42,802 nucleotides of DNA from a virus. The DNA lies in IMG/VR virus record IMGVR_UViG_3300036715_001482, positions 1 through 42,802 of that record; one strand, given 5' to 3'. This document shows, one piece after another, positions 5,627-41,663 of the stretch. A program made the position numbers and the translations under genes. The first letter of the stretch is position 1. The number at the start of each line of letters is the position of its first letter. Below the pieces are notes generated by a model. It was given only the letters and a program-made list of their open reading frames with translations, searched no databases and had not been told where the DNA came from.

Positions 5627-5743
5627 AGGTCCCCGGTCGAGGTCGAGGCCCAGGGCCGAGGGCCCCCAAATCCGAGGCCGGTGGGGGGCAAACGCCTCGC
5701 GCTCGCGCGCGACATATCCCCTCGAAATATTTTTTAGCGGGAA

Positions 5744-6328
5744 ATGAACTGTGAACACGTTATGAGTTTGTTATCAGTTCCCAGCTCGTCCATTCCCCCC
5801 ATCCCATTGACACCGCCCCCGCCCTGGTCTATCCTTCCTGCATACCCATCCACCACCCCGCCGGGAAGAATGCCGCCTCCTCGCCTTCGCTACACTCACG
5901 ACGCTCTTGTCGATATGGTCATTGCGGAACCGTATCTGGCGCAGAGCGAGCTTGCGGCGCGCTTCGGGTATACGCAAAGCTGGATTTCGATCATCATGAC
6001 GAGCGATGCGTTTCGGGCGAAGCTCGCGGAGAGGCGGGAAGACCTGGTCGATCCGATTCTGAAGGTGACGCTCGAGGACAGGTTCCGGGCGATGACGCAG
6101 CGATCGCTCGAGATACTTCAGGAAAAGCTCTCCGCCCCTGCGAGCGTAGTCCCGGACGGGCTGGTGCTCAAGGCGATGGAGCTGGGGGCGAAGAGCCTCG
6201 GGCTGGGCGGGAATGCTCCTCCGCAGGCTCTCCCTCCCGATCACCTTGATAGGCTGGCTGAGCGGCTCCTCACGCTCCAGCGCGGAATCTCGGGGCGCGT
6301 GATTGAAGGGGAGGTCACAGATTGCTAA
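5744..6328 (+). CDS. Terminase small subunit
   Basis: 194 residues from the first ATG; the true start could be at 5759 or at an ATG near 5870, since the first 40 residues are low-complexity proline-rich and no start has a clear ribosome site. The core (from about LRYTHDALVDMV) contains a helix-turn-helix, QSELAARFGYTQSWISIIM, then a helical oligomerisation region (RREDLVDPILKVTLEDRF). This is the usual layout of phage small terminases, which bind the packaging start site and hand DNA to the large subunit encoded two genes on. First gene of the late operon. Confidence 0.75.
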   Translation: MNCEHVMSLLSVPSSSIPPIPLTPPPPWSILPAYPSTTPPGRMPPPRLRYTHDALVDMVIAEPYLAQSELAARFGYTQSWISIIMTSDAFRAKLAERREDLVDPILKVTLEDRFRAMTQRSLEILQEKLSAPASVVPDGLVLKAMELGAKSLGLGGNAPPQALPPDHLDRLAERLLTLQRGISGRVIEGEVTDC

Positions 6329-6510
6329 TGCGCGAAGTTCCCCTGGCGACCCTCACCCTCGAGATTGGGCGGCTGATGGTGCAGGTCGATGGCGCGTTCG
6401 AGGATTCCTTGTTTAATGCAGGGGCTATTGCGGCCCTTCTGTGGCTGCGCGACGGGGGAGCGGCTCCCTCTGAGGTGGGGCTTAGGGCCCTCGAGGAGCC
6501 GCCCGAATGA
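6328..6510 (+). CDS. Small hypothetical protein between terminase subunits, 60 aa
   Basis: The start ATG at 6328 overlaps the stop of the small terminase gene (TAATG), and the stop overlaps the start of the large terminase gene (ATGA), so the three genes are translationally coupled. The protein has two amphipathic helices with a hydrophobic stretch (FNAGAIAALLWL). No family recognised; by place it may help packaging. Confidence 0.65.
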   Translation: MREVPLATLTLEIGRLMVQVDGAFEDSLFNAGAIAALLWLRDGGAAPSEVGLRALEEPPE

Positions 6511-7964
6511 CAGTCCGGCTCAGCGCTCCCTTGATCGAGAGTTTCGCGGGAATGTTCCTGTCGCAGATGTACGATGATCCGCAGGTAACTCCGGACTGTC
6601 ATCGGGAGTGGTGGGAGATGTACTGCCAGGACGACGCGCAGGTTGCGATCGCCGCTCCTCGGGGGCACGCGAAGTCCACCGCGCTCACGCACGACTTCGC
6701 CCTGGCGAATGCGCTCTTTCAGGTCGAGTCTCACATCCTGATCGTGAGTGCGACGGAGGAGCTGAGCATCGGGCATCTCGGGGATATTGCGAAAGAGCTT
6801 CGAGACAACGACGACCTCATCCGGCATTTCGGCGTGGAGAAGTTCCTCACCGACTCGAAGGGCGAGATTGTTATTCGCTGCCGTGGCGGGTATGAGTTCC
6901 GGATCATTGCACGGGGAAGTGGGCAGAAACTCCGGGGGCTGAAGTGGAATGGCAGGCGGCCCGGCCTTATCATCTGCGATGATATGGAAGAGGATGAGCA
7001 GGTCGAGAACATCGACAGGCGGCGGAAGTTTCGCCAGTGGGTTATGCGCGCACTCCTGCCGCTCGGGCGGAGGAACTGCAAGATTCGGTGGCACGGGACG
7101 ATCCTCCACGAGGCCGCAATGCTCGCGCGGATTATGAAGGATGACACCTGGGTGAGCGCTCTCTACAAAGCTCACGAGGGGTTCGATGACTTCTCCTCCA
7201 TCCTCTGGCCCGAGATGTGGAGTGAGGAGCGGCTGCGTAGCAAGCGCGAAGGGTACATTGCCCAGCACGATCCGGCGGGCTACTCCCAGGAGTACCTCAA
7301 CGACCCCTTCGACAACAGCGACGCCTATCTGCGGCGAGACGACTTCCTCCCCATGACGCCGGCAGACTACGAGGCCCCTGGCTACGTGAAGGTGGGCGTG
7401 GACTTCGCGGTCTCGAAGGCTGATAGAGCTAATCGCACCTCCTTCACCGTTGGGTCGAGGGGCGCTGCGAACACCATCTGCATCCGGGACGAGCGGGTGG
7501 GGAGGTGGGAGCCTCTCGAGTGGATTGAAGTGTTCTTCGAGCTGGAGGAGCGCTGGCATCCCGACGAGTTCATTGTTGAGGGTGGCGTGATCTGGAAAGC
7601 GATTTCTCGGACAATCTTCAACGAGATGGCGGCAAGGGATGTTTTTTTCTCTATCCGGGTTCTCAACCCTGTGAAGGATAAGGGAGTGCGGGGACGGCCG
7701 CTGCAAAAGCGCCATCGTGCAGGAGCCATGCGGTACGACAAAGCGGCCTCTTGGTATGCGGCCTACGAGGCTGAGCTTCTGCGCTTCACGGGCACCTCCG
7801 ACGCGCTTGCCGACGACCAGTTTGACTCCACTGCCCTTCTGGTGAGGGGGTTCGACGAATCCGCCGCAGTGGAAGAAGAAGACTTCCTCCCAGAGGATGA
7901 GTTAGAAGTTCGGCGCGCTCCTCGCGGCGGGTCTGCGGGACGCAGTATGACAACTGGATATTGA
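6507..7964 (+). CDS. Terminase large subunit (packaging ATPase/nuclease)
   Basis: 485 residues, normal for the family. The N-terminal ATPase has a Walker A variant APRGHAKST (residues 50-58) and a Walker B/glutamate region LIICDDMEEDE (154-164). The C-terminal RNase-H-like nuclease begins with VGVDFAVS (D299) and has a late acidic pair in DDQFDS. It pumps DNA into the prohead through the portal and cuts the concatemer. The C-terminal tail is acidic then basic (EEEDFLPEDELEVRR), likely the portal-docking end. The AxRGHAKS form of Walker A is usual in this terminase group. Confidence 0.95.
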   Translation: MTVRLSAPLIESFAGMFLSQMYDDPQVTPDCHREWWEMYCQDDAQVAIAAPRGHAKSTALTHDFALANALFQVESHILIVSATEELSIGHLGDIAKELRDNDDLIRHFGVEKFLTDSKGEIVIRCRGGYEFRIIARGSGQKLRGLKWNGRRPGLIICDDMEEDEQVENIDRRRKFRQWVMRALLPLGRRNCKIRWHGTILHEAAMLARIMKDDTWVSALYKAHEGFDDFSSILWPEMWSEERLRSKREGYIAQHDPAGYSQEYLNDPFDNSDAYLRRDDFLPMTPADYEAPGYVKVGVDFAVSKADRANRTSFTVGSRGAANTICIRDERVGRWEPLEWIEVFFELEERWHPDEFIVEGGVIWKAISRTIFNEMAARDVFFSIRVLNPVKDKGVRGRPLQKRHRAGAMRYDKAASWYAAYEAELLRFTGTSDALADDQFDSTALLVRGFDESAAVEEEDFLPEDELEVRRAPRGGSAGRSMTTGY

Positions 7965-7976
7965 AAAGGAATCACA

Positions 7977-8120
7977 ATGGCTCTTGACGTAACCCTTACC
8001 ACCTTCGCGCAGGCCCTCGTCGCACGAAACTCTGAGGATGAGATTCAAGCCGCTACGGCTGCGCTGCTCGCTGACCTCCAGGCTCTCGTGCCGGCTCCTG
8101 CTCCGGCTCCTGCACCATGA
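7977..8120 (+). CDS. Small protein with Pro-Ala tail, 47 aa
   Basis: A 47-residue frame with ribosome site AAAAGGA (6 bases upstream). Most of the chain is one helix (TFAQALVARNSEDEIQAATA), ending in repeated PA units (VPAPAPAPAP). Its stop overlaps the next start (ATGA). Family unknown; small helical proteins at this place in podoviruses are often minor virion parts. Confidence 0.5.
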   Translation: MALDVTLTTFAQALVARNSEDEIQAATAALLADLQALVPAPAPAPAP

Positions 8121-8221
8121 AAAAAGCCAAGACCCCCAAGGCGGTAAAGACGCCTGAGCAGCAACGCCCCCCGACCGAAGCCAAGCCTATTCCCCAGCGC
8201 AAACAGCTGGCGGGCTACTGA
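8117..8221 (+). CDS. Very small basic protein, 34 aa
   Basis: A lysine- and proline-rich 34-residue frame (MKKAKTPKAVKTPEQQRPPT) coupled by a 4-base overlap to the gene before. It is too short and disordered to assign. Phage-encoded basic peptides of this type may bind DNA or RNA, but nothing here proves it is a stable product. Confidence 0.4.
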   Translation: MKKAKTPKAVKTPEQQRPPTEAKPIPQRKQLAGY

Positions 8222-8235
8222 AAAGGAACTGAAAA

Positions 8236-8433
8236 ATGTCTTCTGTAAAACGTCCTACCAAGCACACTGAGCATGCTAGCAAGGGTGAGCATGTCACTGT
8301 TGTAACCCATCATCGACTCGCCGAGACCCACTCGAGTGCTGTGTTTCCGGAGCACGCAGGCGAGTCTACCTGGCACAGTGGCCCGCGTAACGGGCATCCG
8401 GGCAAGGGTGACGGGAAAGCGCGCGGTCGATGA
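8236..8433 (+). CDS. Small histidine-rich protein, 65 aa
   Basis: A good ribosome site (AAAAGGAA) lies 8 bases upstream. The chain is rich in His, Lys and Gly (KRPTKHTEHASKGEHVTVV and a GHPGKGDGKARGR end) with few hydrophobic residues, so it is probably disordered or metal-binding. The stop overlaps the next start. Family unknown. Confidence 0.55.
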   Translation: MSSVKRPTKHTEHASKGEHVTVVTHHRLAETHSSAVFPEHAGESTWHSGPRNGHPGKGDGKARGR

Positions 8434-8741
8434 GTCGGATCGTCCTCGCGCCTAAGCCCCTCGGGGAGACCCGGCGGGAAACTTTCGACTTCTCGTCGCG
8501 TCTGGCCTCCGGGGAAACTCTGACCGGGGCGTCGGGTAGCGCGTCAGTCTACAGCGGCACCGACGCCTCACCCTCTGCGCTGCTCCAGGGCTCTGCGAGT
8601 GTGAGCGGAGCGCTTGCATACGTGACTCTGACCGGCGGGGTTGTCGGAGTGCTCTATGAGATTCTCTGCACTGCTACCACCTCTGCCGGACAGGTCCTTA
8701 CGCTGTCTGCCTACTTAGCTCTTACCCCGGACCTGCAATGA
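8430..8741 (+). CDS. Putative fibre/tail adaptor-type virion protein, 103 aa
   Basis: An all-beta protein of Ig-like appearance: alternating Ser/Thr/Gly/Val strands, and the order F-SRLASGETLTGASGSASV ... GVLYEILCTATTSAGQV. This order (deviation from a set value, then a time/space derivative-like strand) is what I know from small phage proteins annotated as fibre-tail adaptors. It sits between terminase and portal, 4-base overlap with both neighbours. The virion role is likely; the exact place is not certain. Confidence 0.5.
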   Translation: MSRIVLAPKPLGETRRETFDFSSRLASGETLTGASGSASVYSGTDASPSALLQGSASVSGALAYVTLTGGVVGVLYEILCTATTSAGQVLTLSAYLALTPDLQ

Positions 8742-10843
8742 TTAAGCTTGAGACTCTCCTGACCCTCGACGACAGTGCGATGCTTTCGCCAAACCTGTGC
8801 GATCGTTTCTCGGAGAGAGACCTTGGGGCCCTGGGCCGCTTGGTGGTTGACGGGTATAAGAGAGACTTGCAATCCCGCGCGAAGTGGGAGAAGCGGATGC
8901 AGAGCGCCATGAACCTAGCGCTTCAGGTTCAGCAAGATAAGAGTTTCCCGTGGCCGAATTGCTCTAACATTGCTTTCCCGCTTGTGACTATTGCGGCCCT
9001 CCAGTGGCAGGCGCGCGCATACCCCGCGCTGGTTGAGGGGAACCAGGTTGTGAAGTGCCGCGTGGTGGGCAGCGACCCAAACGGGATGAAGCAGGCTGCG
9101 GCTTCGCGCGTCTCCACCCACATGAGCTATCAGGTCATGGAGGAGGATGAGGCTTGGGAAGAGCAGCACGATCGGATGCTGATTAGTGTTCCAATCGTCG
9201 GAACGGCCTTTAAGAAGTCCTACTACTCCGGTCGAAAGGGCTGCAACATCTCGGAGCTGGTGCTGGCGCAGGACCTCGTCCTGGACTACTACGCTACGTC
9301 GGTTAATGACTGCGCGCGCAAGACTCACCGCATTCCGCTCTCTCGGAACGAGATTCACGAGAAGTCCGTCAGGGGTGTTTTCCGCGACGTGACGGGAGAG
9401 AGCTGGCTGGAGGGGATGCCGCAGCCAGTGGCGGCGCAGAAGTCGGATTTGCGAAGGGGGATGAGTGAACCCACGCCCGATGACACCACGCCCTTCCGTG
9501 GGCTCGAGCAGCATGTTTCCCTCGACCTGGACGGCGATGGCTATGCGGAACCCTACATCATCACAGTCGAAGAAACCACCGAGACGGTTCTCCGCATTGT
9601 CACTCGGTTTGAGCCGGTTGATATTGAGCGAGTTGGCGGGCGGATTGTTGCGATTCGCTCCATAGAGTATTTCACGAAGTACGGCTTCATACCCGCTCCC
9701 GATGGCGGCATCTATGATATTGGTTTCGGGATATTGCTCGGGCCCCTGAACGAGAGTGTCAATACGATTATCAATCAGATGGTGGATGCCGGGACGATGG
9801 CGAACACAGCGGGAGGCTTTCTCTCGCGCGGAGTGAAGATCAGAGGCGGAAGCTATACCTTTGCGCCCCTCGAGTGGAAGCGCGTGGACTCGACTGGAGA
9901 AGACCTCCAGAAGGGTATTGTTCCGTTGCCTGTGCGGGAGCCCTCGGCGGTGTTGCTCCAGCTTCTCCCCCTCCTGATCAACTACACAAACCGGATCAGC
10001 GGATCGACAGATGCTGCGACTGGCGAGAACCCTGGGCAGAACACCCCGGCAGAGACGCAGCGGTCGATGGTCGAGCAGGGTACGAAAATCTACAATGCGA
10101 TCTTCAAGCGCATCTGGCGCTCGATGAAGGAGGAGTTCAAGAAACTCTTTATTCTCAATGCGCGGTATCTCCCGGTGGAGTCCCGCTACGGAGATGGCCC
10201 GGATAGCGTAGTGCTGCGGGCTGACTACATGCAAGACACGCGCGCGGTGGTTCCGGCGGCTGATCCAAATCTCGCCAGCGATACCATTAGATTCCAGCAG
10301 GCGACTCTAGTGAAGCAGGCAGCCGCTGCCACAGGTGGCTACGACCGGGATGCGGTGGAGCGGATGTGGCTGCGCTCGCTGAAGGTCGATGGGTATGAGG
10401 CTCTATTCAAGGGTTCCGACAAAGTTCCGCCGCTCCCGAATCCGAAGATGATGCTTGAAGAGGCGAAAGCCAAAGTCAAAGAAATGCAAATCAAGGCGCA
10501 CCTCCAAGAGGTCGCCCTCAAGATTCAGTCTGACCAAGAAAAGGTCAAGGCGCAAGTTGATCTCCTCAAAGCCCAGGCCGCCAAAGCGCTGGTCGAGGCT
10601 GGCGGGAATCAGGCTGCACAGCGAGTTCGTGAATTCGAGGTGCAGGTCGCTGCCAAGGAGAGCGAGCATAAAACTCTCCAAGGCTATCTAGAGCTAGCAA
10701 TGAAAGGAATGCAAGATGATAAGTCAGGAGGAGTTTCTGGATTGGAAAGCCCACCGAGTCACCAAGGCGGTGCTGGCGGTGCTGACGGCCAAGATGGAGG
10801 AGGGCAAGGCGGAATGGGCGGAGGGGCGTTTTATGGGGGATGA
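8738..10843 (+). CDS. Portal protein (P22 gp1-like size)
   Basis: 701 residues, directly downstream of the terminase group. The N-terminal part (MNLALQVQQDKSFPWPNCSN) and the middle (SVNTIINQMVDAGTMANTAG) match large podoviral portals. It would form the dodecameric DNA gate at one capsid vertex and bind the gp4-like factor at 19514-20221. The C-terminus has a long coiled coil (from EEAKAKVKEMQIKAHLQEV to KESEHKTLQGYL), like the P22 barrel, then a Gly-rich end (GGQGGMGGGAFYGG) whose DNA is shared with the next gene in another frame. Confidence 0.85.
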   Translation: MIKLETLLTLDDSAMLSPNLCDRFSERDLGALGRLVVDGYKRDLQSRAKWEKRMQSAMNLALQVQQDKSFPWPNCSNIAFPLVTIAALQWQARAYPALVEGNQVVKCRVVGSDPNGMKQAAASRVSTHMSYQVMEEDEAWEEQHDRMLISVPIVGTAFKKSYYSGRKGCNISELVLAQDLVLDYYATSVNDCARKTHRIPLSRNEIHEKSVRGVFRDVTGESWLEGMPQPVAAQKSDLRRGMSEPTPDDTTPFRGLEQHVSLDLDGDGYAEPYIITVEETTETVLRIVTRFEPVDIERVGGRIVAIRSIEYFTKYGFIPAPDGGIYDIGFGILLGPLNESVNTIINQMVDAGTMANTAGGFLSRGVKIRGGSYTFAPLEWKRVDSTGEDLQKGIVPLPVREPSAVLLQLLPLLINYTNRISGSTDAATGENPGQNTPAETQRSMVEQGTKIYNAIFKRIWRSMKEEFKKLFILNARYLPVESRYGDGPDSVVLRADYMQDTRAVVPAADPNLASDTIRFQQATLVKQAAAATGGYDRDAVERMWLRSLKVDGYEALFKGSDKVPPLPNPKMMLEEAKAKVKEMQIKAHLQEVALKIQSDQEKVKAQVDLLKAQAAKALVEAGGNQAAQRVREFEVQVAAKESEHKTLQGYLELAMKGMQDDKSGGVSGLESPPSHQGGAGGADGQDGGGQGGMGGGAFYGG

Positions 10844-23455: not shown

Positions 23456-24541
23456 ATGGCTGGCATTGACACTGAAATGTACACTAGCCCGGTTGATGCG
23501 GCGCTGAGCTATAAGCAAGGACTTGCGAACCTTGCCGCTACGCAGGCAGCTACCCAGGGACAGCAATACAGCAACCAAGCGGAGGAACTGAAGCTCAAGA
23601 ACCAGCAAGCAATGCAGGAGCGCCTGGCTAAGATGGCACAGGCTCAAGAGCAGATGGCCTTGCGACCGTTCGCGGAAGCGGCGCAGGGAAACCAAATAAC
23701 GAATGAATCCAATTTCATGCTGGAGCTGGGGCATATCGCATTCTCGGCTGACCCGAAGCTTGGCGCAGAGCTTATCAATCACGGTTTAACGGGGCTTGAG
23801 AAGGCTTCTGCTATCGCCAATGCGGAGCAATCCCGGCAGGTCACCAGACTGGAGGGCGTAGTCAAACTCCAGGAAGATGCTTTCAAACAGCTTAGTCGCT
23901 TTGAAGGCCAGTCCCAGGAAGAGGTTGACCGAAGCTGGCCCGAGACCTTGCAGTCATTTGACAAGCAACTCCGGGCGGTCGGCTCAAGCCTCCCTCCGCT
24001 CCTTCGCAACATGAAGCCAACGCCGGAGAATATTCGCAAGCTTCGCGACGCTATGCTTCCTGTGAACTCCGAGACGAAGCTCGCACTGATGAACCTCCAG
24101 GCGTCTCTCAACCAGCAGAAGCTTGACTTGGAGCGGCAGAGGACCGCCTCAACCATCGAGGTAAATAAAAAGACAATCGAACAAAAAGACCTGGATGTTG
24201 CTAAGAGGGAGCGTGAAGTTGGTGATGCGGTGAGCTACGATATGGCTCCGGACATTGCAGAGCAGATTCCCGCGCTGGCGAAAAACAAAAAAGAGCTTCG
24301 GAGGATTTCTCGAGAGGCCTCTGAGCGCTACATGCAACTGCGGAAGACTCGGCCTGGGGTTTCAGAGGGCCAGCTTAAAGCTATGGCAACAGCGGAAGCT
24401 GCCGCAAAGTGGCACAAGATTAATCGACTGCGCCCGGCAGAGCAGGACTGGGTGACGAAGGCGCTGCAGGCTAATCCACAATACCGCGATCGAGTGGATG
24501 AGGTAATTCAAGAGGGTAAACGGCTCGGGAGAATTAAATAA
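23456..24541 (+). CDS. Internal virion / DNA ejection protein, coiled coil
   Basis: 361 residues, highly helical, Gln/Ala/Lys-rich. Long coiled-coil stretches are seen (YSNQAEELKLKNQQAMQERL and LNQQKLDLERQRTASTIEVN). Strong ribosome site AAAAGGAG. By place and style it is a second ejection protein that would form part of a channel or sheath across the periplasm. Its stop overlaps the next start (TAATGG). Confidence 0.65.
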   Translation: MAGIDTEMYTSPVDAALSYKQGLANLAATQAATQGQQYSNQAEELKLKNQQAMQERLAKMAQAQEQMALRPFAEAAQGNQITNESNFMLELGHIAFSADPKLGAELINHGLTGLEKASAIANAEQSRQVTRLEGVVKLQEDAFKQLSRFEGQSQEEVDRSWPETLQSFDKQLRAVGSSLPPLLRNMKPTPENIRKLRDAMLPVNSETKLALMNLQASLNQQKLDLERQRTASTIEVNKKTIEQKDLDVAKREREVGDAVSYDMAPDIAEQIPALAKNKKELRRISREASERYMQLRKTRPGVSEGQLKAMATAEAAAKWHKINRLRPAEQDWVTKALQANPQYRDRVDEVIQEGKRLGRIK

Positions 24542-27500
24542 TGGCACAAGGACTTGAAGGGTTTGTTGATCCGGCCGCAGGGCCCTCACTGCCGGCTCCT
24601 CTGGCTTTAGCGCCGGCCAAGAAGATTGCAGCACCTCAAAGGCCCCAACCTCTCACAGGGTTTAAAGACCCCTATGCGATAGCTCCGCCCACTGCCCCCG
24701 TCGAGGAGCTGGGATGGAAAGAGAAGATGAACGAGTGGGGGAAGAGCGCAACTGAAGGCATACTGGAAACCTCTAAGGTTATCCGCAGCTTCGACTTTCG
24801 CGAGGGTTATCAGGGGCGCTTTGCCGCAGGTATTGGAGAGAAAGTTGGTGAATGGACGACTGGCGTTTCCCGTGAAAAGCTAGCGGCAATGGGTTACAAG
24901 GAATACGCAGCCCGGCCGATTACTCCTCCGACACCCGATGCCATTAAGAAGTTTTATGAGGCTGCTCGAGACCACCCAGCCACCACGCTCGGGGAATTTA
25001 TCAAAGGTGCAGGAGAGGACTTCTGGGTGTTCTTCCTGCCGGAGTTTGGAGTGGCCGGGAAGCTCGGGGAAGTGGCCGCAAAGGTTTCGGCAAAGTACGC
25101 TGCGCAAGCTGGACGAGTTGGCGCGACTGTCGGGAAGGCGGCGGAACTGGGGGTTGCTGGTGGCGCGGCAGCCACACTAGCGCAGTCGGTAGAGCCGGGG
25201 AAGTTCGACCCGAATGAGATTCAGACTCAAGCAGCTATCTGGGGTACGTTCGGCGGGTTCTCCAGACTGGTGGAACGTGCGCCTACTCGTTTCAAGGTTA
25301 AGTACCTTGACCCGAAAACGCCACTGACGGATGCTCATGCCGTGGAGATGGCGAAGGAGATTAACGCGGCTCATCCGAAGGAAAGGCCCCTCAGTCCGAA
25401 GGAAGTTAAGAAGCTGGCGCAAGAGTGGAAAGAGCATCAGAAGAAGGTTCAGAAGAAACTGTCCGATGAGCCATTCAATCAATACAAGAAGACGGTTGCT
25501 GATATAAAGAAGAGGGGGAAGAGCGGAGAGAGCCCCTCTGTAGATGAGGTGTTTGCGAGGGCAAAGCGGAAGGCTGATGCTCCTCCCCCGGCAGGGGGAC
25601 TTTCGGTTGAAACCTACGTTGATAACTATATTGCAGGGTTGGGAAGGGACTCTCCCGACCACACTCAATTTGCACTCAATCACCCGGAAGAGATTAATGC
25701 AGAGTTTGCGCGCCGAGGGGCGGATGAGCGCAACCAAAGGGCTGAGTTCACTGAGGAGCCCTCTGCCGAGTCTCGAAGCATTGACGAAATCTGGGAACGT
25801 CACGAGCGAGAGACCGAAGCTCGAAAGATCGCGGAAATGCAGCAGTCACCGCGAGAGGCTATTGCTCTTAACCCTGGAAGGCCGGCGGGTCCGTACACAG
25901 ATATCTCAAGTGGAAAGGAACACCCAGGGGGAGGTGAGCCCCCAACGGCAATGGAGCAGGCCTTCGCGCGGGCCAAACAGAAAACAAGGCCACAACCCGC
26001 TGCGCAGAGACTGGAAGAAGCACGAACGCATAACCCCGATGTTACGAGAACACAAGCATCGCCCGCTCGAGAGCCCGTTTCACACTCCGCGATCCTCCGC
26101 AGGAGAACACCCGAAGGAGCCAAGGCCGCTGAAGTTCGAGCTAGCGAGCGCCAGGCGAAGCTGGAGCAGCAAGCTGCCTCAGGCGACCTGGTTCAGTCCC
26201 TTCACGCTCTTGTCGAATTGTCCGTGATTCCGGAGGTTGACCTGCGCAGCGGGCTTCCCCTTGAGGTTAAGGGAGGAGGGGCGCAGCCGAGCGAGAGTCC
26301 CAAGGGCTATCTGTCGTTTGCCCAGGGCCTCAAGGACAATGCAGGAAAGATTGGCGGAGTAGCAGCCGCGCTAACTGCGGCCGAGCTCTTCCAGGCGGAG
26401 GAGGACAAGCGGAAGATGTGGGGGTTGAACCCGGCTCCCGGACACGGACAGCAAGTTCAGCTCCTCGACACCCTAGGGATGAGCGCGCTTGGAGCTGCCT
26501 TAATTGTAGCCGGTCACGGGAGAGATGAGATTTCCATGGCAGGACTTCTCAAGGACACCGCGACTCTGGCTGAGACGAAGAAATCCCTCAGCGTTACTTC
26601 CCCGATTATGGAGAGCCTAAATCCTTTTGCAACCGATCACACGCCTCAAGAGATCAGGGAGATTATCAACCGTAAAGGGATTAAGGAGGAAGACAAGAAA
26701 GTCTTTCTAGCGATTCTTCAGGCCCACGAGACCGGCAACCAGGCGCGGATTGCTCGGGGCGAACCCCCTAAGCCAGCCATATCGTCTCATGATTTGACTG
26801 TTGGGTTTAAGCTTCAGACCCAGGATATTGTGCTGACTCCTCAAGACACGCAGACGCTAAACGACCGGAAGCTTGTGAATGTCGGGATTGTAGACTCGAA
26901 GGGAGGAAGTGACTATAAGAACGGCCTTGTGAAGCCAGCCGAAGGGCAGTCCGACCTTCCCTCCACAACTACAAGCTGGCAACTTCCGCAGGAGCTCTCC
27001 GATAAGAACCACTTGAAGGATGGGAGAAGTTTTGGCACTACCCGCTCGATCCAGCTGGAGAACGGCATCGAGGGAGTGCACGAGGTTCAGTCCGACCTGG
27101 CGCAGCATCAGCGGGTGCTGACAGATGAAAAGGCCGAAGAGCTGAAAGCTCGGGGAAAGGAACTTGAGGAGGAGATTAAAAAATCCTCGAAAGAAGTTCA
27201 AGAGGCCAGAACGCCGGAGGAGCGGGCAGCGGCTCAAGAGCACTGGAATAGAATCGGGCGACTGCGCGACGAGCTTCGAGAGGGGCAGAGCAGACTGGCT
27301 ACGGACGAGGTGAACAAGCCTATTAGAACAGCCACTGATGCCGCAGGCTTAACGCCGCTGACAAAAGCCGCTCAACCGCGACTGGTGCAGCAGGTCCTGG
27401 AACGGGCTGGTAATCGCGGAGACCCGGTGGTGTGGTTTGCGAACCCGGACACTGTGGCGAAGATTCAAGGCTTCGAGCCGGTTGATTTCAAAGCCCGTCT

Positions 27501-30336
27501 GGAGATGCTGAAAGCCGAAGAAGCCGCCAGGAAAGAGCGAGGAGACTCGACAATAAAGGACGATGATCTCAAGCGAGCTATTGCGCGGGTTGAGGACGCT
27601 ATTAAGAAGGGGCACAAGTATGAGCCGAGCGAGCAGGGGATTTACGACAAGTATGCGAAGGAGCTGCAGCTATACCTAAACTCTCTTGGCGGGAAAGCTC
27701 GCAAAGACGCTCGCGGGCTGGACTGGACAGAAGTCCCAACTCGTCCCGGAAAGCCTCCGTTAGCGTGGGGAGCTGCCGACCCGGAGCTAGTCAAATGGCT
27801 TGGACTGGGCGGGTTGATTGCGGGTATGGGGGTTTACTCCTACAACCACCCGAAGGACTTTAACGCAGCACTCGCGACCGGACTGCTCAGCGCCTGGGCG
27901 GCTCGGAAGATTCTCCCTGGCGGAGAGCGCGTAGGCAAGATGCTTGACGACTCTTGGAATAGAGTCTTTCCCGAGCACGCTTCGAGGGGAAGCGAGAAGG
28001 CTGCCGCGCATATGGGCCATCGACTGGCGGAGGCAGCTCGTTCAGCCTCTACCTTTAAGTGGGCACAGGAAAAGCTCGAAGACTTTTTCAGCACGCGGAA
28101 AGAGGAGGGCTTGCCCTTTATTCTCAATTACGAGAAGGGAAAAAAGCAAGCTAACCCAATGCTGGACGCTGTGGCAAAGAGCGTGCGTGAGTGGGGGGAT
28201 AGGATATTTGAACAAGATGCTGCAAACGGGATTCAGTATGACCCGAGGGATAACTATATCGTCCACCAGTTCGAGGGAGACCCGTCGGCTATTGCAAAAC
28301 TTCTTGACTCAAAGTACGGGACTCGCTGGGGAGACCCGTCCTTCTCCAAGGAGAGGCAGTTCAAGTACCTCGAAGATGCGCTGGAGTACATAGACCCGGC
28401 AACTGGCGAGCATCCATTTAAGCTTAAAACCGATAACCCTATAACTCTAATGCGGATGCGACAGGCTGCTTCTGATATGGCTGCTGCAAAGGTCTCGATC
28501 CTTAAAGACTTCGAGGGTGATGGGCTTGCGCGAAAGCTCGGGAAGGGGGATAAGCTCGAGCCGGGAGAGTTCGATTGGCGCAGTCCGAACGGGGATGTGT
28601 TTGCAGTCGGCCAGGATGTTAATCAAGTTCTGCACAACGCTTTCAAGGACTTCTCACTCTGGCTCGACCCCACGGCCCTCGGAGCTTCTTTCCGCATTGG
28701 CATGGCGCTGAAGAGTGCAACTATTCCAATTAAACTGTTGAGTGCCTTTCACTTCGCTCACTTAACGCTGGCGATGCCCTCCGCCACGACAATCTCCACG
28801 GCGGTGCAGTCACTTCTCGCGCACAACTACTCTCCGAAGAATTTTTTCGACCTAGCGAGTGGCGCAACGGTGGTAGGCCCGGCAGCTCAAATGTCTTACA
28901 TGGGGCACCGCTCTATGGCAATGTACGAAGGCCGCCTGAAGAACCCCACGGTCCTCGACAAGGCAAGACTGCAGCGTCAGATCGAGGGAGGAATGATTCC
29001 GTCGAGGGCGCAGGAGGAGGGGCACGGCGTAGGAAACTGGGGGCATGCGGCGCAGCGCAAGTTTGTTCTTGCGGTGCAGGATCAGAAGTGGATGCGGGCG
29101 GGAGCATTTGCAGTGCCAGCGGCTGTTGGGCTAGTTACCCACGGCTTCCTCGGGGCTTTTGTCCCGCGCCTCAAGCTCGGGGCCTATGACCTGATGGCTG
29201 ATGCGGCGATCAGGAATGATCCCAGACTCGCGGCGGACGACACTGCCCGCGTGGAACGCTTGCGGCAAATCACGAAGGTCGTGGAAAGTCGCTTTGGGCA
29301 AATGCAATACAGCCAGAGGTTCTGGAACAAGCTCACGAAGGATGCGCTGGTACTCTCGTTTCTTTCGGCAGGGTGGCAGGCTGGGTTGCTCGACATGACA
29401 GTTGGGGCAGGAAAAGATATCGGGAAGGCTATTAAAGCGGGAGGCATTGGGGAATCCGCAAGGCTTGGCCTGCTTGAGCGCCCGCTGTTTCTTCCCGCCT
29501 ACGCAGGGCAAACGGCTATTGTGGCTGGCCTCATTACCTACATGATGACAGGAGAAGAGCCCGAGGGCATGGACTATCTCGCTCCGAGGTCTGGGACAGA
29601 TATTGATGGAAAGCCTGTGCGGCTTAACACTCCATTTTATACGCTAGAGGGAGCGAAAATATACAAGCACCTTGAGGCGGAAGGGCTTGCTAAAACCGCC
29701 CGAGACACCGTGGCAAATAAAATGTACGACTCGTATGAGGTACTTCGGATTCTTCTCCTTAACAAAGACTCGCAGGGACTGGAGATGTCGAACCCCGAAT
29801 CATCGGCCATGCAGCAACTGGTCCAGCGCGGCTCGAGCGTGCTTCAGACTCTCACACCAATGGCGCTGGAAGCCGTAGAGCGCAAGGGCCTTGATAGCCT
29901 GGGGTGGCAGATGACGGCTATGGCAGGTTTCTCTCCAGCCCCGAACTACCTGGATAACACCGCGACAGAAAACAAGATCGATCAAGCCTACAGGAAAGAG
30001 GTCGGCTCGCACGAAATATCCTACGTGAAGGGAAAAGAGATCAGGGCCAGAGGAGACTATAAGGCGGCTCTTCGCGCAGGGAATGACGACAAAGCCGAGG
30101 CCAAGGCCGATGTTCTGCGAGATGACTTCGGGCTTCCGGAAAAAGACCTTGCAAAAATGCGGAAGAGTCTTCGAGACCCTCAAGCAATAACCCGATTCAA
30201 GAGTCTTTCCCCGGAGACACAAGCCCAGCTACTGGACAAGATGCCGGGCGAGGAACTGATCGACTACCTTCGAGTTGCTTCTCCGAAGGCTCGTAAACTG
30301 TATTTGGAGAGTGAAGATGAAAGTTCTGATCGTTGA
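24541..30336 (+). CDS. Giant polyvalent internal virion protein, 1931 aa
   Basis: One frame of 5.8 kb. Residues 1-300 are a Pro-rich lead and helical Ala/Gly stretches (AAKVSAKYAAQAGRVGATVG). Near 337 and 474 are related units FARAKRK and FARAKQK in disordered linkers. Near 846, GIEGVHEVQSDLAQH, and near 1032, GIYDKYAKELQLYLNSLG, match the two signatures of the 'EVQSDW' type domain of large polyvalent phage proteins. Several hydrophobic segments lie at about 600-660, 1085-1120 and 1515-1535. A C-terminal helical domain (DAAIRNDPRLAADDTARVER) follows. Polyvalent proteins are injected with phage DNA and carry counter-defence or host-directed domains; here it is the last ejection gene. Confidence 0.75.
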   Translation: MAQGLEGFVDPAAGPSLPAPLALAPAKKIAAPQRPQPLTGFKDPYAIAPPTAPVEELGWKEKMNEWGKSATEGILETSKVIRSFDFREGYQGRFAAGIGEKVGEWTTGVSREKLAAMGYKEYAARPITPPTPDAIKKFYEAARDHPATTLGEFIKGAGEDFWVFFLPEFGVAGKLGEVAAKVSAKYAAQAGRVGATVGKAAELGVAGGAAATLAQSVEPGKFDPNEIQTQAAIWGTFGGFSRLVERAPTRFKVKYLDPKTPLTDAHAVEMAKEINAAHPKERPLSPKEVKKLAQEWKEHQKKVQKKLSDEPFNQYKKTVADIKKRGKSGESPSVDEVFARAKRKADAPPPAGGLSVETYVDNYIAGLGRDSPDHTQFALNHPEEINAEFARRGADERNQRAEFTEEPSAESRSIDEIWERHERETEARKIAEMQQSPREAIALNPGRPAGPYTDISSGKEHPGGGEPPTAMEQAFARAKQKTRPQPAAQRLEEARTHNPDVTRTQASPAREPVSHSAILRRRTPEGAKAAEVRASERQAKLEQQAASGDLVQSLHALVELSVIPEVDLRSGLPLEVKGGGAQPSESPKGYLSFAQGLKDNAGKIGGVAAALTAAELFQAEEDKRKMWGLNPAPGHGQQVQLLDTLGMSALGAALIVAGHGRDEISMAGLLKDTATLAETKKSLSVTSPIMESLNPFATDHTPQEIREIINRKGIKEEDKKVFLAILQAHETGNQARIARGEPPKPAISSHDLTVGFKLQTQDIVLTPQDTQTLNDRKLVNVGIVDSKGGSDYKNGLVKPAEGQSDLPSTTTSWQLPQELSDKNHLKDGRSFGTTRSIQLENGIEGVHEVQSDLAQHQRVLTDEKAEELKARGKELEEEIKKSSKEVQEARTPEERAAAQEHWNRIGRLRDELREGQSRLATDEVNKPIRTATDAAGLTPLTKAAQPRLVQQVLERAGNRGDPVVWFANPDTVAKIQGFEPVDFKARLEMLKAEEAARKERGDSTIKDDDLKRAIARVEDAIKKGHKYEPSEQGIYDKYAKELQLYLNSLGGKARKDARGLDWTEVPTRPGKPPLAWGAADPELVKWLGLGGLIAGMGVYSYNHPKDFNAALATGLLSAWAARKILPGGERVGKMLDDSWNRVFPEHASRGSEKAAAHMGHRLAEAARSASTFKWAQEKLEDFFSTRKEEGLPFILNYEKGKKQANPMLDAVAKSVREWGDRIFEQDAANGIQYDPRDNYIVHQFEGDPSAIAKLLDSKYGTRWGDPSFSKERQFKYLEDALEYIDPATGEHPFKLKTDNPITLMRMRQAASDMAAAKVSILKDFEGDGLARKLGKGDKLEPGEFDWRSPNGDVFAVGQDVNQVLHNAFKDFSLWLDPTALGASFRIGMALKSATIPIKLLSAFHFAHLTLAMPSATTISTAVQSLLAHNYSPKNFFDLASGATVVGPAAQMSYMGHRSMAMYEGRLKNPTVLDKARLQRQIEGGMIPSRAQEEGHGVGNWGHAAQRKFVLAVQDQKWMRAGAFAVPAAVGLVTHGFLGAFVPRLKLGAYDLMADAAIRNDPRLAADDTARVERLRQITKVVESRFGQMQYSQRFWNKLTKDALVLSFLSAGWQAGLLDMTVGAGKDIGKAIKAGGIGESARLGLLERPLFLPAYAGQTAIVAGLITYMMTGEEPEGMDYLAPRSGTDIDGKPVRLNTPFYTLEGAKIYKHLEAEGLAKTARDTVANKMYDSYEVLRILLLNKDSQGLEMSNPESSAMQQLVQRGSSVLQTLTPMALEAVERKGLDSLGWQMTAMAGFSPAPNYLDNTATENKIDQAYRKEVGSHEISYVKGKEIRARGDYKAALRAGNDDKAEAKADVLRDDFGLPEKDLAKMRKSLRDPQAITRFKSLSPETQAQLLDKMPGEELIDYLRVASPKARKLYLESEDESSDR

Positions 30337-32916: not shown

Positions 32917-32964
32917 CCCCTAACCCTGCGGGGGAACGGACGCTTCGCCGCTCACCTTAGGCCG
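32917..32964. other. attC-like site A (diverged)
   Basis: CCCTAAC (32918-32924) and CTTAGGC (32956-32962) stand as outer boxes, with inner GAACGGAC and GCCGCTCA as the L boxes. The G that begins the normal GTTRRRY box is C here, so the site may be dead. It marks the left end of the cassette-like array, just past the late operon. As it contains a stem, it may also help end transcription from both sides. Confidence 0.4.
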
Positions 32965-33220
32965 CCTTTTTCATAACCGCTGCCAGTTGTGCCCGCAGCT
33001 TCTTTTCAAATTCCGCCGCAACCTTTTCGCGCAAAGTTTTACTGTCACCAAGCACTTCCAGCACCAGCGCGTCAATCGCGGAACCCCAATGAGCCTTTAC
33101 CCGATCCTTGATAAATTGGTCGGCATTCCACTGGTTTGTCTGGTCAGCAATCGCGGCCCTCACCTTGCGCTCAACCGCGCTCTTAATTTCTTCTTCGGTA
33201 ATCTCAATTTCGAGTTTCAT
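32957..33220 (-). CDS. Cassette gene 1: hypothetical helical protein, 87 aa
   Basis: Unrecognised. Begins MKLEIEITEEEIKSAVERKV and is nearly all helical and charged (SKTLREKVAAEFEKKLRAQL). The ribosome site GGAGTAACAGG directly precedes the ATG, following the site-B box. Its stop lies in the end box of site A, so the gene fills one cassette-like unit. It resembles small phage proteins with an N-terminal beta strand and a helix pair, but no function can be stated. Confidence 0.6.
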   Translation of the reverse strand: MKLEIEITEEEIKSAVERKVRAAIADQTNQWNADQFIKDRVKAHWGSAIDALVLEVLGDSKTLREKVAAEFEKKLRAQLAAVMKKAA

Positions 33221-33233
33221 CCTGTTACTCCAG

Positions 33234-33296
33234 GTCTAATAAAAGTTTCAAGCGGAGCGCGCGAAAAGCCGCACGCCCCTTAGATATGCGTTAGAC
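33234..33296 (+). repeat. attC-like recombination site B
   Basis: 63 bases from GTCTAAT (33234-33240) to GTTAGAC (33290-33296), i.e. imperfect RYYYAAC...GTTRRRY boxes. The left inner part (TTTCAAGCGGA) agrees well with the R''-L'' consensus of integron attC sites, and the right part (CCCCTTAG then GCGTTAG) with the L'-R' side. The middle can form a partial stem. The site fills the gap between the genes at 32957-33220 and 33291-33485. Confidence 0.65.
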
Positions 33297-33485
33297 ATTC
33301 TGTTCCTTGATCGTCTTCAGTAGCTTTTCAGCCAGTTTCACTGCGCCGTTTTCTGGCCGGTGGTGAATCTTGCTGCCGTCATCAACCGAGTACACCACGC
33401 AACCATCAACAAGCGTCTTGCCGGTATTCACCGCACTCCGCGCCATAATCGGATGTCCGTTTATCAGTATTGCCACCGTTAGCAT
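33291..33485 (-). CDS. Cassette gene 2: hypothetical protein, 64 aa
   Basis: Begins MLTVAILINGHPIMARSAVN, a beta-strand-rich small protein, and ends AVKLAEKLLKTIKEQNV. Its ATG lies inside the end box of site C (GTTAGATG on the minus strand) with GGAGAG as the ribosome site, and its TAA lies inside the box of site B (GTCTAAC). A gene that fits its cassette so tightly is typical of integron cassettes. Family unknown. Confidence 0.6.
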   Translation of the reverse strand: MLTVAILINGHPIMARSAVNTGKTLVDGCVVYSVDDGSKIHHRPENGAVKLAEKLLKTIKEQNV

Positions 33486-33552
33486 CTAACTCTCCAATCG
33501 AGCGGGACTGGCCAATAAAGCGCCGTCCAGCCCCTAATTTTTAGCGTTAGGG
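33484..33552 (+). repeat. attC-like recombination site C
   Basis: 69 bases from ATCTAAC (33484-33490) to GTTAGGG (33546-33552). Inner arms GGGACTGG and CCAGCCCC pair at 7 of 8 positions around an 18-base centre. CGAGCGGGA on the left and TAGCGTTAG on the right fit the attC plan. The ATCTAAC box is complementary at 6 of 7 positions to the GTTAGAC of site B, as expected for the two ends of one cassette. Confidence 0.65.
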
Positions 33553-34289
33553 GGCAAAAGCATGTCGCCCTGCACCGCCGTCTTGCCAGCGCCGACTTTT
33601 ACATCCTCGAACAGCCGGGGCTGTGCATACGCCTGTTCGATCCTCCGACACGCGATGTCAAAGTATTTCCGCTCTCTCTCGATGCCGACGAACGCCTTGC
33701 CCAAGTTCACGCAAGCCACTCCCGTGGTTCCTGTTCCCATGAACGGATCACAAACAGTCGCCGCCTTCGGGTGCATGTTAAGGCACCAGATCATCAGCCG
33801 CAGCGGTTTCTGTGTCGGGTGTTCCTTGCCGTCTTGCAGCGCCTCGCCTCGTGGCAAAGTCAAAACCCGCGCCGCTTGTTGCTGGCTGCTCCACGCGAAT
33901 TCGCAATCCGCCAGCGAGAAATTCCGTTGGCCCTTGTCCCACACCAGCCAGCGCATGCTGGGCGGCAGCAGGTCGGTGAAGTAGTTGCCGCCCCAGATAA
34001 CGCATTCCTTGCCCTTCTCCTGCATCAAGCCAAAGAGCCAAGGCGCGGGGCGTTCCTTGTCCCATCCTTCAATTCCGTAGTTCTTCCAGCCTCTCCCGCT
34101 TTTGTTCCCTGCGCTACCCATTGCTATTTGCTTCTCCGCAAGTTCACCGCTTCTGTTGGCCGCAGCGTCCGCGCCTATCCCATACGGCGGGTCGGTCAAA
34201 ATCAGATCGACGGGCGGCAGCAGCGGCAGAACTTCGCGGCAGTCTCCAAGGATCAACCTGCATTCACCAATGGTCACTTCTTCAAACAT
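33534..34289 (-). CDS. Cassette gene 3: DNA methyltransferase (N6-adenine/N4-cytosine type)
   Basis: 251 residues from the ATG at 34289, chosen for its ribosome site (ATAGGAG, 5 bases upstream); a GTG 6 bases earlier would overlap that site. Motif IV LTDPPYG is at residues 31-37 and motif I DPFMGTGTTG at 181-190, with HPTQKP (157-162) between, the beta-class order (catalytic motif first). It would methylate A or C in the phage or host DNA and could block restriction. The specificity cannot be read. Its last codons (PPNAKN) and stop lie inside site C, another sign of a cassette gene. The next cassette gene upstream ends 25 bases before the operon start codon. Confidence 0.9.
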   Translation of the reverse strand: MFEEVTIGECRLILGDCREVLPLLPPVDLILTDPPYGIGADAAANRSGELAEKQIAMGSAGNKSGRGWKNYGIEGWDKERPAPWLFGLMQEKGKECVIWGGNYFTDLLPPSMRWLVWDKGQRNFSLADCEFAWSSQQQAARVLTLPRGEALQDGKEHPTQKPLRLMIWCLNMHPKAATVCDPFMGTGTTGVACVNLGKAFVGIERERKYFDIACRRIEQAYAQPRLFEDVKVGAGKTAVQGDMLLPPNAKN

Positions 34290-34313
34290 AGTCACTCCTA
34301 TTTACCGTTTTCC

Positions 34314-34332
34314 TGCTAACTAGGCGTTGGGC
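34314..34332 (+). repeat. Collapsed attC-like site D
   Basis: TGCTAACTAGGCGTTGGGC: the two end boxes are only 5 bases apart, so the central hairpin is missing. The right box GTTGGGC is a perfect complement of the GCCCAAC that opens site E. The left box is complementary to the site-C box at 5 of 7 positions. Confidence 0.6.
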
Positions 34333-34571
34333 GTCACCAGCTGCTTGCAAATGAACGCGCCGTCCTTCACAAATCCATTGAAAGATTCCCCGCTGATCGC
34401 CGCTTGTGCTGGAATCGTGTATGGCATCAGCGCCTCGGCGACCTTCTGGAATTGTTCCACCGAAATATCGAACTTGTCGTACACCGCCTGCTCAATGGCA
34501 TCACTATCTGCCGTCTCTTCGTCCATCCCTAGTACAACCACCGCGAGTGCTTCAGCGTCCAACCAGTGCAT
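34320..34571 (-). CDS. Cassette gene 4: hypothetical protein, 83 aa
   Basis: Start at 34571 (MHWLDAEALAVVVLGMDEET) has an excellent ribosome site, CAGGAG, 8 bases upstream; the longer reading from 34646 would translate through site E and is rejected. Helical, acidic first half; C-terminus FVKDGAFICKQLVTPNA, the last three residues being encoded by the site-D box (CCCAACGCC). Family unknown; the size and ends are cassette-like. Confidence 0.6.
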   Translation of the reverse strand: MHWLDAEALAVVVLGMDEETADSDAIEQAVYDKFDISVEQFQKVAEALMPYTIPAQAAISGESFNGFVKDGAFICKQLVTPNA

Positions 34572-34594
34572 TTCAATCTCCTGTAAAAAGTGCT

Positions 34595-34670
34595 GCCCAA
34601 CCCAGCGGTCAACGCGGACGCCTACCGGAGATAAAGCTGCCGTCATGAACCGGGTACCTCAGCGTTAGCC
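34595..34670 (+). repeat. attC-like recombination site E
   Basis: 76 bases from GCCCAAC (34595-34601, a full RYYYAAC) to GTTAGCC (34664-34670). The part after the first box (CCAGCGGTCAACGCGGACGC) follows the attC R''-L'' layout, and the right end (TACCTCAGCGTTAGCC) follows L'-R'. GCCCAAC is a 7 of 7 complement to GTTGGGC in site D, which begins the same cassette. Confidence 0.7.
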
Positions 34671-34671
34671 A

Positions 34672-34998
34672 TCAAATGCGCCACCGCTCGTACTGCGGCA
34701 GCACGCTGTCAAAAATCGCCCGGTCGCGGTGCGCTTCTTCTCGTCCGGTGTATTCCTCGCTGCTCAGAAACTCGTCGCCCATCGGGTCAATCGTCTGCCC
34801 GTCCTTCTCCACCCACCAGTGCGCGCGCCGGCATGAGCCGCCGTACCACGTCAGTTCGCCTGCAACCACTTCACCACCTACCGTGTCGGAAATTTCGTCC
34901 GCAATCAGAAGGCAACACCCTTGCAGGTTTGCTCCGTATGCGGCCTTGTACTTTTCGTGGATCATTTCCGCCGTGAAATCTTGTTCCGCTTTGTGCAT
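34672..34998 (-). CDS. Cassette gene 5: possible papain/transglutaminase-like protein, 108 aa
   Basis: Ribosome site AAGGGGAA before MHKAEQDFTAEMIHEKYKAA. The order of QGCCLLIADEISD (Cys), RRAHWWVEKDGQTIDPMGDE (His, then Asp) resembles a Cys-His-Asp triad of papain-like or transglutaminase-like folds, in which the His-containing strand is followed by G-x-x-IDP. This is a weak structural guess; no enzymatic role is claimed. Gene and flanks are cassette-like: its stop is 1 base from site E, and its ATG lies 15 bases after the site-F box. Confidence 0.6.
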   Translation of the reverse strand: MHKAEQDFTAEMIHEKYKAAYGANLQGCCLLIADEISDTVGGEVVAGELTWYGGSCRRAHWWVEKDGQTIDPMGDEFLSSEEYTGREEAHRDRAIFDSVLPQYERWRI

Positions 34999-35013
34999 AT
35001 CGTTCCCCTTGAT

Positions 35014-35033
35014 GGCTAATTCAGGCGTTAGAA
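35014..35033 (+). repeat. Collapsed attC-like site F
   Basis: GGCTAATTCAGGCGTTAGAA: boxes GGCTAAT and GTTAGAA are 6 bases apart with no hairpin between. GGCTAAT is complementary to the site-E box GTTAGCC at 6 of 7 positions; GTTAGAA is a perfect complement to TTCTAAC of site G. The layout is the same as that of site D. Confidence 0.6.
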
Positions 35034-35224
35034 GGTGTTCCCCAATGCTTACGCATCAGTGCTTCGAGCTTTTCCAATGCATCTTGCGAGTTCTTGGCCT
35101 TTACTATGAGATTGGTCGGGAGATTCCAAGCTGGCATAACCGCAACCAGTTCGTCGCCTTCCCACTGTGTTTTGATCTTCATGGGCATCAGTACAACATG
35201 CTCAATAACTGCACTTCGTTTCAT
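35021..35224 (-). CDS. Cassette gene 6: small HicB-like protein, 67 aa
   Basis: Start at 35224 with ribosome site GTGAGGAA; a start 21 bases earlier is less likely. The chain has a strand (HVVLMPMKIKTQWEGDELVA), a PxWNLPT turn, then VKAKNSQDALEKLEALMRKH. This strand-then-helix order recalls the HicB antitoxin fold, but the match is weak and no HicA partner is seen. The last residues (TPSNA) are encoded by the site-F box. Small toxin-antitoxin parts are common integron cargo. Confidence 0.55.
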   Translation of the reverse strand: MKRSAVIEHVVLMPMKIKTQWEGDELVAVMPAWNLPTNLIVKAKNSQDALEKLEALMRKHWGTPSNA

Positions 35225-35393
35225 GTCGTTCCTCACTTCTAACATTGCGCATCAATTTACTGCGCTCTCCAGAATTCCCCATCCCCGGTCGCCAGTTGGT
35301 ATTGCCGTCTGGCTTTGCAATGCACCCCATGCAGCGCAGCACGCGCTCGACCGTGTTCTTGTGGCTGGCATTGCAGGTAGCGCACGTTCTCAT
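35202..35393 (-). CDS. Small zinc-finger-like protein with altered C-terminus, 63 aa
   Basis: The start at 35393 overlaps the stop of the upstream gene (ATGA). Two Cys pairs (C4-C7 in CATC, C21-C24 in CMGC) form a zinc ribbon, then KPDGNTNWRPGMGNSGERSK. The last about 13 codons (from VRSEERHETK) run through the site-G box and into the start of cassette gene 6, so the natural end appears to have been replaced when the cassette arrived. Function unknown. Confidence 0.55.
   Translation of the reverse strand: MRTCATCNASHKNTVERVLRCMGCIAKPDGNTNWRPGMGNSGERSKLMRNVRSEERHETKCSY
35237..35272 (+). repeat. attC-like site G (left half only)
   Basis: TTCTAAC (35237-35243), a 7 of 7 complement to the GTTAGAA box of site F, closes the last cassette. 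The sequence after it (ATTGCGCATCAATTTACTGC) is only loosely like an attC arm and no matching right box is found within about 150 bases. The right edge of the array is therefore probably truncated here. Confidence 0.45.
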
Positions 35394-35683
35394 CGCGCTG
35401 CGTCCATTGCCAGATAGATACACTCCAGCAGCTCAGCCGACAAAACAAAATCCCCACGCGCCAGCATGATGTCGTGCGCCGCTCCGAGCATTTTCCGCGT
35501 TACCGCCGTCTCGCCAGCGCCGTCTTCTCCATCTTCCTCGCCGCCAATAACCGCTTCAATGGCTTCGCATCCTTCGTTCCACAGGGCCAGATCAACGACC
35601 ATCACAGCGCCGTCTTCGCCCTCCATTTCTTCGCCGTTGTGAAACACCTTTGCCAGCGTGTTCAGTGCTTCGTCTTTGTCCAT
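35390..35683 (-). CDS. Hypothetical acidic protein, 97 aa
   Basis: Start at 35683 (MDKDEALNTLAKVFHNGEEM) with ribosome site AAAGGA about 6 bases upstream. Very acidic, with a Gly/Glu/Asp-rich loop (GGEEDGEDGAGETA) and a helical end (LLECIYLAMDAAR). Its stop overlaps the next start. No family is recognised. Confidence 0.6.
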   Translation of the reverse strand: MDKDEALNTLAKVFHNGEEMEGEDGAVMVVDLALWNEGCEAIEAVIGGEEDGEDGAGETAVTRKMLGAAHDIMLARGDFVLSAELLECIYLAMDAAR

Positions 35684-35706
35684 TTCTCGTCCTTTCGTTG
35701 TTAATG

Positions 35707-35756
35707 GCATAACCCAGCGCTCACCACGCCCGCAGCGCTTGCCACCATTATTGACA
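35707..35756 (+). repeat. Possible left half of another attC-like site (H)
   Basis: GCATAAC followed by CCAGCGCTCACCACGCCCGC aligns with the start of site E at about 20 of 27 positions. AGCGCT occurs twice and could form a short stem. No right-hand GTTRRRY is found, so this is at best a decayed site in the gap between the genes starting at 35683 and ending at 35761. Confidence 0.3.
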
Positions 35757-41423: not shown

Positions 41424-41468
41424 GATGTTTCCTTGAAGGTTAGGTTAAGGTCAAGTTGAGCGGGGTTA

Positions 41469-41663
41469 CTAGGGGAACAGGTGCTCGGGCTGTTCGACAC
41501 AGCGGGAAGAGGGGGAGAGGGCTAAGCGCACGAACTGGTCGATTAGCTCCTCGCTAACACAATAAGCGACTATGAGGCGAGAGTAGTCGTCGGAGAGGTG
41601 TGACATTTCGTGAAGCTCCTCCTCGTAACACCATTCTCCGGAGGGCCAGTAGTAGATTAGCAT
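41469..41663 (-). CDS. Small hypothetical protein, 64 aa
   Basis: Unrecognised. Acidic and Tyr/Trp-rich at the start (MLIYYWPSGEWCYEEELHEM), helical after that, with a basic end. Its ATG begins one base after the stop of the ATPase gene (TAACATG), so it is co-translated with it. Confidence 0.55.
   Translation of the reverse strand: MLIYYWPSGEWCYEEELHEMSHLSDDYSRLIVAYCVSEELIDQFVRLALSPSSRCVEQPEHLFP

Follow-up and report, generated by a model that had tools for sequence, protein, structure and literature searches.

An integrase-less array of integron-type cassettes in a phage genome, with genes antisense to their attC sites

Introduction

A 42.8-kb tailed phage genome (IMG/VR record IMGVR_UViG_3300036715_001482; the whole 42,802-nt stretch is referred to here as the window) contains six small minus-strand genes separated by short sites with integron-like boxes. 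Does this locus represent a genuine array of integron gene cassettes, and if so, how did such cassettes come to be carried and exchanged by a phage without an integrase? The initial annotation, made from the sequence alone, proposed an integron-type cassette array lacking an integrase, with genes placed as in integron cassettes, complementary boxes at the two ends of each unit, a DNA methyltransferase cargo, and an arrangement at most rarely described in phages. We examined each of these claims using attC models, comparison with close relatives and two censuses of IMG/VR viral contigs.

Results

The locus contains genuine attC sites

The six minus-strand open reading frames were found at or near the positions first assigned to them; the methyltransferase frame can start at 34295 and the gene at 34320-34571 can start at 34646. 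The locus lies at the 3' end of the leftward replication-gene block, and its features are as follows.

32918-32962 (+): site A, a degenerate attC-like end of the array (CCCTAAC ... CTTAGGC); the relative L030 has GCGTCAGGC at the same place
32957-33220 (-): cassette gene g1, 87 aa, unknown function; kept in L030 (9302-9565), replaced in the relatives L031 and L024
33234-33296 (+): site B, full-length attC, antisense to the genes; covariance model 20.0 bits, E 0.007; profile 30.2 bits
33291-33485 (-): cassette gene g2, 64 aa, start codon overlapping the R'' box of site C; kept in L030, with a homologue that is a reversed cassette in the viral locus L244
33484-33552 (+): site C, full-length attC; covariance model 11.3 bits, E 1.2; profile 20.0 bits
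33534-34289 (-): cassette gene (MTase) for an N6/N4 DNA methyltransferase, 251 aa; phrog_67 1.5e-45, PF01555 6.7e-19
34314-34332 (+): site D, R-box remnant (TGCTAAC-TAGGC-GTTGGGC) without L hairpin; the same short site precedes the methyltransferase in L024 behind a different box
34320-34571 (-): cassette gene g4, 83 aa, phrog_10957, function unknown
34595-34670 (+): site E, attC (GCCCAAC ... GCGTTAGCC); profile 22.5 bits, not found by the covariance model at E<=5
34672-34998 (-): cassette gene g5, 108 aa, YunG-like but below the Pfam cut-off (PF24585, 6e-5)
35014-35033 (+): site F, R-box remnant without L hairpin
35021-35224 (-): cassette gene g6, 67 aa; kept in L031 at 95.6% nucleotide identity
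35237-35276 (+): site G, degenerate attC-like left end with a small hairpin (fold z -3.0)
35395-35753 (-): segment (most of gene 35390-35710) present only in the window among the four close relatives; a possible further unit, with no attC score

All four plus-strand GCGTTAG motifs of the window lie in the array (33288, 33544, 34662 and 35025), together with a GCGTTGG at 34324. To test for attC without circularity, attC sites of class 1 integrons were taken from plasmids, together with one proven site of Tetrasphaera phage TJE1, and used to build a two-part profile and a covariance model (R1; 18 sites with R and L pairs). The three best-scoring places of the profile on either strand of the window were sites B, E and C (28.4, 21.4 and 19.0 bits without the R-box bonus). 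In 60 dinucleotide shuffles the best score averaged 14.1 bits (maximum 20.6) and the third best never exceeded 14.6, so that the three sites score above all shuffles as a set. R1 identified sites B and C and nothing else, although C is weak in this model and E is missed by it. Sites D (19 bp) and F (20 bp) have R boxes only 5-6 bp apart and no L arms, and A and G are degenerate. An Rfam scan at gathering thresholds returned nothing in the window. When the sites were folded as single strands they did not fold significantly better than shuffles, except for G, and thus folding alone does not prove attC here; intact sites in relatives fold strongly.

The boxes at the two ends of each unit were complementary as first described. 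At the four variable positions the units g6, g5, g4, MTase, g2 and g1 scored 4, 4, 4, 2, 3 and 3 of 4, compared with 2, 2, 1, 2 and 4 within the single sites F, E, D, C and B. No tyrosine recombinase domain (PF00589) was found in the window, and neither intI nor attI lies next to the array. The observation made in the initial annotation was therefore confirmed, with the qualification that only B, C and E have full-length attC anatomy; its assumption of attC-like character does not hold for D and F, which are only R-box remnants.

The cassette genes are antisense to their attC sites

Hits to both models in the window were on the plus strand, whereas all six genes are on the minus strand. In bacterial integrons, including those of class 1, gene and attC agree in direction, which is usual for cassette arrays but not strictly defining. 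R1 read this normal polarity correctly in sites outside its training set: in Shewanella phage M16-3, which carries intI, attC sites and genes are both on the minus strand, and the same agreement was found in a Vibrio phage integron. TJE1, which contributed one site to the training set, was plus and plus. The genes in the window are thus reversed: each gene ends at the crossover box (coding-strand RYYYAA|C) and carries its attC upstream. For g2, the start codon overlaps the box and the GGAG ahead of it lies inside site C. The claim that the genes sit as integron cassettes do was not supported.

Near-identical phages carry different cassettes

To examine whether the array is a stable block, we searched for close relatives. 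A scan with the DNA polymerase gave two contigs of the same phage, L030 (mean 96.4% identity over 9.4 kb) and L031 (93.6% over 17.5 kb), and a third, L024 (96.7% over 3.0 kb), was found through the methyltransferase. Between the same flanks, each phage held a different set of cassettes: g6-g5-g4-MTase-g2-g1 in the window; an MTase variant, g2, two new genes (n1, n2) and g1 in L030; d1-g6-p1-k1 in L031; and d1, further units, a second methyltransferase, m1, an RNA ligase, MTase, h1, k1 and a Mom-family gene in L024. The outcome that had been set beforehand as refuting the array, namely no attC hit and the same genes recurring as a stable block, was not observed. Many similarities stop at the box (g1 on its upstream side, g6 and k1 on their downstream side), but some stop inside the attC loop (d1 in L031 and L024) or within the methyltransferase gene (window and L030), so homologous recombination has also acted. 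L030 contains an extra segment with an attC (6497-6939), but its ends do not follow the G|TT rule; a textbook insertion into an empty site at window position 36242 was considered and rejected for this reason. No integrase was found in the contigs of L024, L030 or L031.

The 80 retained relatives by DNA polymerase (mostly 44-62% identical) nearly all lacked attC hits, and thus the array is a local acquisition and not an old family trait. A scan of bacterial genomes for the methyltransferase gave only one remote hit (Sporosarcina), and plasmids gave only distant methyltransferases; the cassette was not found in a bacterial integron.

Reversed cassettes are found in many other viral contigs

To determine whether reverse polarity occurs elsewhere, we first analyzed viral contigs found through this methyltransferase family. 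R1 identified arrays of up to 11 sites, scoring up to 59.7 bits, with attC opposite to the methyltransferase. When the gene of each inter-attC interval was called by codon score, 59 intervals carried an antisense gene, 2 a same-sense gene and 11 were undecided. To remove the bias of choosing by one gene, IMG/VR was searched with an attC motif and the count repeated, giving 59 antisense, 12 same-sense and 29 undecided intervals. Together the two censuses comprise 118 antisense, 14 same-sense and 40 undecided intervals. In the motif census, all but one of the same-sense calls were in contigs whose IMG numbers begin with 2 (isolate genomes), two of which carry a full intI; metagenomic viral contigs were 56:1 antisense to same-sense compared with 3:11 for isolates (P = 1.6e-9, near-duplicate contigs not removed, with L215/L235 and L222/L255 counting twice). 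Gene direction in these counts rests on codon scores for genes without homologues. Portal, terminase, tail, primase or DNA polymerase genes were present in many of the reversed contigs.

The unit ends again carried the cassette signature. At the four variable box positions the two ends of a unit matched 3.68 of 4 (57 of 72 perfect) in the methyltransferase census and 3.58 of 4 (74 of 100 perfect) in the motif census, while the two boxes of one attC matched 2.32 and 2.36 of 4. This is expected if units pass through a circular form.

A complete example was identified on the contig of L168 (3300048930_000381), which has a large terminase subunit, tail and head-tail genes. A truncated intI lies at its end, 52% identical to IntI1 over 244 residues, and just before intI is an attI with two direct GGTTAGCGGACAGGT repeats and a crossover box AAGTTGGGCC. 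The first cassette is a methyltransferase whose stop codon abuts that box and whose gene points towards intI, and the GGCCCAAC boxes of this unit match perfectly. The contig of L152 shows the same layout with a broken intI. The attC-attI-intI geometry is thus the normal one, with attI at the 5' end of intI, and the genes are the reversed part.

Discussion

The interpretation given in the initial annotation is supported in part: these are integron-type cassettes in a phage without an integrase, with a DNA methyltransferase cargo, but the gene direction, the uniform attC character of the sites and the rarity did not hold. Phage attC clusters without integrase, some with DNA methyltransferases, were described by Qi et al. 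2023 (PMC9892861) in phages including TJE1, Pseudoalteromonas phage PH101, Polaribacter phage P12002L and MW202573, and five of six tested phage attC sites recombined with attI1 under IntI1. The complete phage MW202573 carries a relative of the methyltransferase studied here and, in our scan, four R1 hits on the minus strand amid genes annotated on the plus strand, the same reverse polarity; TJE1 is in normal polarity, and P12002L and Rctr41k gave no convincing hits with this model. That study does not comment on gene polarity relative to attC and compares no near-identical phages. In the literature we searched, which did not extend to subscription papers or preprints, no paper described systematic reverse polarity in phage arrays or cassette turnover among near-identical phages.

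Comparison with other systems places the array as follows. Class 1 mobile integron arrays share the R and L boxes, the attC sequence (some phage sites being nearly identical to the aadB/qac type) and the matching of unit ends, but here the genes are antisense to attC, the window has no intI or Pc, and upstream phage transcription would read the genes. Sedentary chromosomal integrons of Vibrio and Shewanella share attC-bounded single-gene units with accessory functions; the present array is small, lies in a phage with no detected integrase, and has reversed genes and cargo related to DNA modification. In the 'reverse integron' of Treponema denticola (PMC4909258, PMC7691350) the integrase gene is the part that is turned round, relative to attI, and the cassettes are normal to attC, whereas in the phage contig of L168 intI, attI and attC keep the usual geometry and the cassette genes are reversed.

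We consider the stretch to be a partly decayed integron cassette array without integrase (a CALIN), with a probability of about 0.8. The cassettes, their polarity and their turnover between near-identical phages are established by sequence, and related cassettes turn up in unrelated phages in the same reverse polarity, which looks like a phage pool of reversed cassettes. That the sites are substrates of an integron integrase acting in trans is inferred, and no integrase could be tied to this phage. In this view, an integrase from the host, a co-infecting element or a phage that carries one (as on the contig of L168) would fold and recombine the attC bottom strand, which here is the coding strand, and so excise and insert single cassettes. 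Sites B, C and E may still be substrates, and D and F should be dead. Phage transcription coming from the far end would read the genes. Several cargo genes modify DNA (methyltransferases, Mom), so counter-restriction is their likely use.

Other explanations were weighed against this reading. It is possible, but unlikely, that the array was taken from a bacterial integron as a block, is now dead, and differs between relatives through homologous recombination between similar attC repeats and deletion. The lost hairpins of D and F, the degenerate ends, the breakpoints inside attC or the methyltransferase and the lack of an integrase in the window and in the contigs of L024, L030 and L031 fit this view; however, new genes arrive with their own intact attC and perfectly matching unit boxes (n1 and n2 in L030, k1 and others in L024), many similarities end at the box, and reversed polarity is not what a bacterial block would show. 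An assignment of polarity in error, with sites of a different attC type whose asymmetry is mirrored, could be entertained because the training set is small and mostly class 1. This is very unlikely, as the attC after the L004 methyltransferase is, reversed, nearly the classic aadB/qac attC (GTCTAACAATTCATTCAAGCCGAC...), scoring 59.7 bits on the minus strand, attC polarity agrees with the intI-attI geometry in L168, and other phage integrons come out normal. That the boxes are phage intergenic repeats, such as terminators or regulatory elements, that merely resemble attC is largely refuted. Short sites such as D and F do recur before different genes and hairpins between genes are common in phages, but a model from class 1 attC scores up to 66.8 bits in viral contigs with the asymmetry of L'' and L', unit ends match each other rather than the ends of one site, and L168 has intI and attI in the proper place. 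An ordinary phage operon with terminators was rejected on the same unit-box matching and attC scores.

A broader reading, which we regard as about as likely as not, is that phages of many lineages share an integron cassette pool of their own, kept apart from the bacterial one by gene polarity. The genes would be read by phage transcription and be unreadable from a host Pc promoter, and the recombining attC strand would be the coding strand, exposed during transcription and, if replication runs with the genes, on the lagging-strand template, which would favour shuffling inside the phage; some phages bring their own integrase. In Vibrio cholerae, inverting the array relative to replication, which placed that strand on the lagging-strand template, raised cassette excision (PMC11023631), so polarity is likely to matter for turnover. 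Whether this is why phages use this polarity is a guess; the simpler reason may be that arrays happen to lie opposite to phage transcription and only reversed genes are read.

Integron polarity is taken as fixed because the integrase uses one strand of attC so that the gene ends up readable from Pc (PMC11023631). A phage pool in which polarity is turned round would make it possible to ask sharply which strand recombines and in which direction cassettes can cross between host integrons and phages. Such a pool would mean a second, separate cassette economy that carries anti-restriction genes, and would explain how phages swap single genes without large homology.

Comparison of the window with L030 and L031, two contigs of the same phage, also revealed differences outside the main array. 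In L030, an extra segment of 444 bp (6497-6939, compared with window position 36242) carried a gene and an attC site scoring 43.9 bits. The ends of this segment did not follow the usual crossover rule, and thus it may reflect either an insertion or a loss in the others. Further insertions of about 980 bp (7836-8819) and 330 bp (5729-6058) relative to the window were identified in L031, and neither contained an attC hit. A short hypervariable gene segment was also observed at window 41428-41621, where the window differed from L030 and L031, which agreed with each other; this segment was located between well conserved flanks and contained no attC. Among the late genes of the window, a 1931-residue open frame (24541-30336) had no PHROGs match at 0.001.

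Examination of cassette content revealed units shared between different phages. The RNA ligase cassette (77%) and the second methyltransferase cassette (93% over 190 bp) were present in both L175 (8388-9238) and L024 (845-2568), the latter a near relative of the window phage, but in a different order. The last cassette of L024 (4031-4807) encodes a Mom-family DNA modification protein (PF25680, 2e-37), and a gene with a similar N-terminus was found in a reversed cassette of the contig L152. We also compared window 33662-34216, within the methyltransferase gene, with L030 7709-8287. The gene retained about 93-96% identity at both ends; in contrast, its middle was replaced by a very different version, and the L030 version was 78% identical to one in the phage contig L168. 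This pattern appears as if target-recognition parts of the methyltransferase were swapped.
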